Of a DNA stretch of 36,493 bases, positions 2,265 through 3,193 are shown piece after piece. The stretch is from the IMG/VR virus record IMGVR_UViG_3300005096_000006, positions 1 to 36,493 of that record. One strand, given 5' to 3'. Under the pieces are notes generated by a model, which was not told the DNA's origin, did no database searches, and saw nothing but the letters and a program-made list of their open reading frames with translations. This DNA is from a virus. Numbering within the stretch: the first letter of the stretch is position 1; each line of letters starts with the position of its first letter. A program made the translations under genes and the position numbers.

Positions 2265-2368
2265 AAAAAAATAACAGGGGTAGTGAATGGACAGTGTCTC
2301 CCGGATTGGGAGAAAAAAGAACACTACCCCCGTTAGATTTTGCCGAAAGGAAATTATCACTGTCCATT
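2265..2368 (-). promoter_or_regulatory. attenuator-like leader with two interlocked inverted repeats
   Basis: In - strand RNA order: an 11-base arm B1 (AATGGACAGTG, complement of 2358-2368), arm A1 (complement of 2322-2334, AACGGGGGTAGTG), a 6-bp hairpin (2297-2302 with 2308-2313, loop GGATT on the + strand), arm B2 (2286-2296, perfect complement of B1), and arm A2 (2273-2285, pairs with A1 in 12 of 13 positions). One base (2272) then separates A2 from seven U (2265-2271) and the next gene's ribosome binding site. A1:A2 plus U7 is a terminator stem. B1:B2 interlocks with it, so the two can form a pseudoknot or compete. B1 sits at the predicted transcription start. Confidence 0.7.
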
Positions 2369-2374
2369 ACTTAC

Positions 2375-2403
2375 ACTCTACCACAACCAAAAACCCTTGT
2401 CAA
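2375..2403 (-). promoter_or_regulatory. sigma70-like promoter for the replication operon
   Basis: On the - strand, a perfect -35 TTGACA (2398-2403) is followed by a 17-base spacer and TAGAGT (2375-2380), matching four of six bases of the -10 consensus. The predicted start is about 2368, at the first base of leader arm B1. It overlaps the gap just downstream of the repressor gene, so the replication genes have their own promoter and are not only read through from the repressor. Confidence 0.65.
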
Positions 2404-2740: not shown

Positions 2741-2761
2741 GGGGTATGATGGAGGTTGATA

Positions 2762-3193
2762 ATGAGAGAGATAAAATTTCGGGCTTGGGATAAAAAGAAT
2801 AAGATTATGTGCCAGGTTTGGGATATAGGTTGGAAAGCTTGGAGAGAAGGTAGCCCTATAAATTATGTAAGAGTCTGGAATACCAAGAGTGATGGCACAT
2901 ATGAATTATTAGAGCATGAGTGTATTCTTCTTCAATATACTGGTTGTAAGGATAAAAACGGTAAAGAGATTTATGAAGGGGATATTTTAGAAGGAACTAC
3001 CTATAAAGAACCCATAGTGCAAAAAACAGCTAAAAGGTGTATTGGGATGGTAAAAATTATTCCTGATAAATTGTGGGTAAAATGGCAACTCCCTAAAAAT
3101 TTTGGCACATATCCTTATTTAAGTGATAGAGATATAGAAATTATCGGCAACATTTATGAGAACCCGGAATTACTGGAGGGTACTAATGGGTAA
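2762..3193 (+). CDS. YopX family protein
   Basis: 143 residues. It begins MREIKFRAWDK and contains LLQYTGCKDKNGKEIYEGDI (about 60-80), then a C-terminal IEIIGNIYENPELL. These are the signature segments of the YopX family of small phage proteins. The biochemical role of the family is unknown; it is typical of early regions of low-GC Gram-positive phages. The ATG at 2762 lies 6 bases after GGAGG (2751-2755), so the earlier TTG is not the start. It is the first gene of the + strand early operon. A second copy lies at 12759-13169, near the operon end. Confidence 0.85.
   Translation: MREIKFRAWDKKNKIMCQVWDIGWKAWREGSPINYVRVWNTKSDGTYELLEHECILLQYTGCKDKNGKEIYEGDILEGTTYKEPIVQKTAKRCIGMVKIIPDKLWVKWQLPKNFGTYPYLSDRDIEIIGNIYENPELLEGTNG

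Follow-up and report, generated by a model that had tools for sequence, protein, structure and literature searches.

Two interlocked helices in a phage leader that is probably an RNA switch or small RNA timing the turn-on of replication genes

The leader and its genomic surroundings

The window (the whole stretch of DNA analysed, 36,493 nucleotides) is an uncultured phage contig of ~36.5 kb from IMG/VR (IMGVR_UViG_3300005096_000006) that encodes a P22-type portal and a Terminase_3 large subunit. Two operons diverge from ~2600-2756. The plus-strand operon carries a YopX-like gene, the HTH gene P0005, a RecT-like gene and others; the minus-strand operon runs from P0003 through the leader, P0001 and P0002 to the terminase and structural genes, across the contig ends. 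The same minus-strand genes follow one another in unbroken succession in a related contig, IMGVR_UViG_3300028399_000020 (L002, which holds the related leader, and L019, L101, L102, L105 and L118 are stretches thereof). P0003 (2407-2598, minus strand, 63 aa), the first gene of its operon, encodes an HTH protein of the Cro/CI type (Pfam HTH_3, E 3.6e-12), and the promoter scan placed its promoter, TTGACA-17-TATTAT, at 2632-2604 on the same strand. In both phages its ATG lies ~6 nt past the -10 without a Shine-Dalgarno sequence (2598-2632 in the window), and for this reason we read the P0003 mRNA as probably leaderless; the lambda cI mRNA made from pRM is a leaderless mRNA with which it can be compared. 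The first gene downstream of the leader, P0001 (2068-2253, minus strand, 61 aa), had no match in the family searches, and P0002 (1154-2068, minus strand) encodes a DnaD-like helicase loader or replication initiation protein (PHROG 2514, E 8.6e-33).

The leader, ~104 bases on the minus strand, is situated between the Cro/CI-type HTH gene and the DnaD-like replication operon. The promoter scan, together with conservation in L002, assigned it a promoter of its own of the sigma-70 type (2375-2403, minus strand), with TTGACA at 2403-2398, a 17-nt spacer and TG-n-TAGAGT at 2380-2375. The predicted +1 falls at or adjoining 2368, the seventh base after the -10, and arm B1 (AATGGACAGTG / AAUGGACAGUG, 2358-2368) begins there, as an earlier note on this DNA had proposed. 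B1 is followed by a 22-nt linker, L1 (2336-2357), whose conserved UUCCUUU block is a predicted partner of the Shine-Dalgarno sequence, and by arm A1 (UAACGGGGGUAGUG, 2322-2335), the 5' side of a terminator stem. Folding and comparison then defined an inner hairpin (UCUCCC-AAUCC-GGGAGA, 2297-2313) that abuts arm B2 without a spacer, arm B2 itself (CACTGTCCATT / CACUGUCCAUU, 2286-2296), the partner of B1, which likewise abuts A2, and arm A2 (CACUACCCCUGUUA, 2272-2285), the 3' side of the terminator stem. A U7 tract (2265-2271), the predicted termination site, directly precedes the Shine-Dalgarno sequence of P0001 (AAGGAGGGG, 2256-2264), whose ATG is at 2253; all of these features are on the minus strand. 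Counted along the transcript from 0 at 2368, B1 occupies 0-10, A1 33-46 (after the 22-nt linker), the hairpin 55-71 (after an 8-nt linker), B2 72-82, A2 83-96 and U7 97-103, before the Shine-Dalgarno sequence and the AUG. Every part named in the earlier note was thus recovered, in the order and at the place it gave.

Helix B (B1:B2) consists of 11 Watson-Crick pairs out of 11, the perfect pairing that had been claimed. In helix A (A1:A2) the 13-base core of A1 (AACGGGGGTAGTG, 2334-2322) faces CACTACCCCTGTT (2285-2273) with 12 Watson-Crick pairs, in line with the original count of 12 of 13, plus one G-U, and an extra U-A pair (2335/2272) brings the stem to 14. A G+C-rich stem of 14 pairs (13 in L002) followed by U7 (in L002 by UACUUUUUC, a weaker U-tract) fits an intrinsic terminator, apart from the loop: at 36-37 nt, holding the hairpin and B2, it exceeds the short loops of such terminators, and a simple terminator scan with loops of 3-8 did not report it. 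Scanning for the arrangement as a whole (a stem of 12 or more pairs next to a U-tract, interlocked with 11 or more exact pairs) returned exactly one site in the window, the leader; the other loci, 0.9 Mb in all, gave a hit in the related contig alone, and no interlocked pair of the same strength occurred on either strand in 20 Markov shuffles.

Between the divergent promoters lie two copies of TTATCCG (2643-2649 and 2689-2695), 46 bp apart, which are kept in position and sequence in L002 and are absent at the leader promoter. Judged by sequence, this pair is a better candidate for a repressor operator than the arms of the leader.

Conservation of the leader in a related phage

All conservation figures compare two sequences, the window and L002. 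The HTH protein of L002 is 84% identical to P0003 and the leader DNA shows ~80% identity. At the leader promoter the two phages agree in both hexamers and in the TGG preceding the -10, and the spacer has diverged. Within the leader, B1 and B2 of L002 read AATGGAGAGTG and CACTCTCCATT, a double change from C:G to G:C; A1 is the same as in the window, A2 carries a C-to-U and a U-to-C change, each opposite a G so that pairing is kept, and the inner hairpin has a single change from U-A to U-G. All 30 pairs are therefore kept and none is broken, with one two-sided change (in B) and three one-sided, wobble-compatible changes (two in A, one in the hairpin). Of the 60 paired columns 5 carry a substitution, of the 36 unpaired ones 10, and when the same five were dealt randomly over the paired columns all pairs stayed intact in 0.87% of trials. 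Slid controls gave 40-52% pairing, and a shuffle control (236/500) is powerless with two rows. The spacings also agree: L1 measures 22 nt in the window and 23 nt in L002 and L2 8 and 9 nt, and in both phages there are 0 nt between hairpin and B2 and between B2 and A2.

These comparisons support pairing of both helices at the RNA level, and the pseudoknot-capable terminator that had been proposed before the replication genes keeps both of its helices in the relative. The covariation that the earlier note had proposed looking for in related phages was found, in one relative and without a broken pair among the 30; the two-sided change in B is one single event between two sequences, and as covariation support it is thin. 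Since the related phage keeps the fold by matching base changes, we regard the leader as a probably genuine RNA element, a switch or small RNA that times the turn-on of the replication genes.

Protein scans of IMG/VR started from the complete replication protein or its C-terminal half, and also from the next gene, from the terminase or from the HTH gene; together with two DNA-pattern scans there, they found the leader in one further contig only. The remaining pattern matches in IMG/VR, and those in GTDB genomes, lacked the leader structure. Relatives at ~40-50% terminase identity showed no homologous leader, and most of those contigs end near the terminase. A host search that ran a terminase profile against about 1000 genomes from three phyla gave nothing close, the phage collection contained no similar DNA, and the plasmid collection gave short matches inside the replication gene only, with the leader unmatched.

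Folding, possible function and rival explanations

In the transcript the helices are interlocked in the order B1-A1-B2-A2, and pair-preserving changes in both helices, in two sequences, give the thin covariation support that a pseudoknot calls for. The earlier note had spoken of two mutually constraining pairings; the interlocking holds, but mutual exclusion does not, because the four arms share no bases (B2 ends where A2 starts) and the rough energy allows both helices. The shared arm through which classical (pT181/trp) attenuators exclude one of two pairings is lacking here, so the leader is no classical either/or attenuator, and B and A could coexist as a pseudoknot. In nested folding, the B fold has the minimum energy until the RNA reaches ~93 nt (-28.0; L002 -29.1), and the terminator fold is best once A2 has emerged (-32.2 at 96 nt and -35.1 at 104; L002 -36.8). 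A rough, hand-made energy sum for the pseudoknot, calculated without a real loop model, amounts to -45 kcal/mol in the window and -43 kcal/mol in L002. Loop lengths and this sum would allow both helices simultaneously, in which case switching would be kinetic or would need a bound factor. Hairpin, B2, A2 and the U-tract form a continuous 3' strand in the window and a nearly continuous one in L002; with zero spacers, this one strand would carry a single stack of the hairpin, B and A, joined in the window by the U-tract, and the 5' end would be buried.

We give about even chances to the reading that the leader is an intrinsic-terminator attenuator that gates the replication operon and yields, on termination, a compact RNA of ~104 nt. 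The RNA would start at B1, which would pair with B2 as soon as B2 emerges; A2 would then pair with A1 and halt RNA polymerase at the U-tract, leaving an RNA of ~104 nt in which hairpin, B, A and U-tract are stacked as a pseudoknot around a buried 5' end. The replication genes would be expressed by read-through, either as leakage or in response to an antitermination signal, and the attenuator would also precede the packaging and structural genes further down the operon. What is read directly from the sequences is that the arms exist and are conserved, one compensatory change included, that the promoter hexamers are kept in two phages, and how the genes are ordered; termination, coexistence of B and A, an effect of B on termination or stability, and regulated read-through are what we infer from them. 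We identified no antiterminator, ligand, bound factor or antisense partner for the leader. In the read-through RNA the UUCCUUU block of L1 is predicted to pair with the Shine-Dalgarno sequence in both phages, and a second, translational layer of control is possible, albeit weakly supported because the pairing register differs between the phages.

More tentatively, the transcript's first 11 bases may enter the loop of the terminator and stack end to end with its stem, which would make the leader a distinct class of phage terminator switch, in which the state of the 5' end (free, or bound by a ribosome, a protein or another RNA) decides whether transcription terminates, or how long the terminated RNA lasts, ahead of the replication genes. 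If confirmed, a phage replication operon would be gated independently of protein or through a sensed factor, by an unusual element whose terminator loop is filled by the transcript's own 5' end; this would offer a compact and testable RNA part, and a new place to seek lysis-lysogeny control based on RNA and not on repressors.

Alternatively, and with a smaller chance that we still take seriously, the locus could be a small-RNA gene whose stable, pseudoknotted product of ~104 nt acts in trans, be its target an mRNA of the phage or the host or, in the manner of P4 immunity, the leader it comes from, with attenuation as a by-product or with both roles combined as in Gifsy-1 IsrK. The leader has its own promoter and terminator, both conserved, and this promoter, as it lacks the TTATCCG repeats, may stay active under repression. 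Pairing is predicted to begin with the very first base of the RNA, whose exposed CU-rich linkers could reach Shine-Dalgarno sites. IsrK offers a precedent, since its read-through mRNA is translationally silent (PMC4825925), and here the Shine-Dalgarno sequence of the read-through RNA is predicted to be paired too. Against a role in trans, no exact complementarity of at least 12 nt to other parts of the phage was found.

The simple alternative raised in the earlier note, a plain terminator of the HTH gene with basal read-through whose B1 and B2 are DNA operator copies at the second promoter, has become improbable. The terminator does lie just downstream of the HTH gene, B1 overlaps the +1, the arms resemble each other, and a symmetric change in both arms would also be expected of two operator copies. 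However, B changed in step in both arms, yet neither P0003 nor P0005 differs between the phages in its recognition helix; that these helices and the TTATCCG pair remain unchanged while B changes favours RNA pairing over DNA operators. Moreover, the changes in the A stem are one-sided and of G-U types, which preserves RNA and not DNA symmetry, the spacing from hairpin to B2 to A2 is exactly 0/0 in both phages, and arms B and A recur elsewhere, the divergent promoter region included, at chance level only.

A translated leader peptide, with ribosomes trailing the polymerase and preventing termination as in pyrBI-type attenuation, is very unlikely: its frame, which would run leaderless from an AUG in B1 at or adjoining the +1 through A1, B2 and A2 to a UAA before the Shine-Dalgarno sequence, has 34 and 35 open codons in the two phages and a shared stop position, and the neighbouring HTH gene is also apparently leaderless, but such a frame stays open in shuffles with probabilities of 0.35 and 0.25, has no Shine-Dalgarno sequence of its own, and is shifted midway by indels, which together with 4 non-synonymous changes among the 6 changed codons of the first 17 indicate that no peptide is conserved, and a gene for a conserved peptide was rejected on these grounds.

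Relation to known leaders and exchange of the downstream genes

In lambda, nutR-tR1 lies between cro and the replication genes, and by gene order P0003 would hold the position of cro and the leader that of nutR-tR1. The same setting, with a cro-type gene on one side and the replication genes of an early operon on the other, recalls HK022 put, where an early-operon terminator must be passed for downstream expression (PMC9378689). Unlike in lambda and HK022, the terminator of the leader is an intrinsic stem with a U-tract, to which a separate promoter and an interlocked 5' arm belong; we identified neither boxA/boxB nor a put-like pair of stem-loops nor an N-like protein for this phage.

Rfam gave no match at or above the gathering threshold. 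The earlier note knew of no named phage RNA switch with this order; there are partial likenesses to IsrK, P4 and pT181. IsrK of Gifsy-1 is a phage RNA with its own promoter and terminator that exists as a short RNA or as a read-through operon mRNA with a paired ribosome site (PMC4825925). The leader likewise has its own promoter and terminator, a predicted choice between short RNA and read-through, and a predicted paired Shine-Dalgarno sequence; it differs in having no sequence match to IsrK and no identified orf45-, anrP- or antQ-like genes. It is also pseudoknot-capable, and a pseudoknot is not among the features of IsrK described in PMC4825925. In P4 immunity (CI RNA, seqA/seqC), complementary segments cause premature termination in the untranslated leader of a replication operon (PMC4825925). 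Our leader also precedes a replication operon and has complementary segments, but the RNA of P4 is processed and has two targets in trans, whereas here the complementary arms lie in one 104-nt RNA that would end in an intrinsic terminator. In the repC-type control of pT181/pIP501, an attenuator just upstream of the replication gene has a terminator overlapping the ribosome-site region (PMC5703833); a pre-emptor competes for a terminator arm, with a counter-transcript flipping the switch. The leader would share the attenuator ahead of replication genes and the terminator next to the ribosome site; it differs in its disjoint arms and in having no plus-strand promoter-like site inside it or within ~300 bases upstream (none at 1966-2578), and an attenuator driven by an antisense counter-transcript of the pT181 type was rejected since there is no promoter for it.

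The leader appears, from its sequence, to be a variant of phage leader attenuation or of a small RNA in which the defining features of IsrK, P4 and pT181 that we tested are not found. In H-type pseudoknot expression platforms such as preQ1-I riboswitches, a pseudoknot near the 5' end stands beside a terminator; unlike there, the leader has no known ligand pocket, its B and A have no base in common, and B2-A2 takes the place of A1-B2 as the continuous strand.

DNA similarity between the window and L002 stops at 2258, directly after the leader. The gene that follows in L002 is a different, RepO-like one, and the window has P0001 and another replication N-domain. With a different gene after the leader and the end of similarity at 2258, the leader travels with the regulatory cassette, as a portable module that remains linked to the HTH gene although the genes behind it differ, and this argues against its being a replication origin or belonging to P0001. 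The exchanged region itself (1154-2258) is a recombination mosaic, in which P0001 and the N-domain of the replication protein differ and the C-domain is common to both phages (88% identical). Inside the replication gene we noted iteron-like repeats, TGGTTGGTGGT at 1648-1731 of the window and TATCAAAAAAGATA at 2812-2975 of L002, which are probable replication origins. The leader as a replication origin was rejected, since the exchange took in the part of that gene with these repeats and left the leader in place. On the plus strand, a YopX-family gene (2756-3193) separates the promoter from P0005 in the window; it is absent from L002, where P0005 directly follows the promoter.
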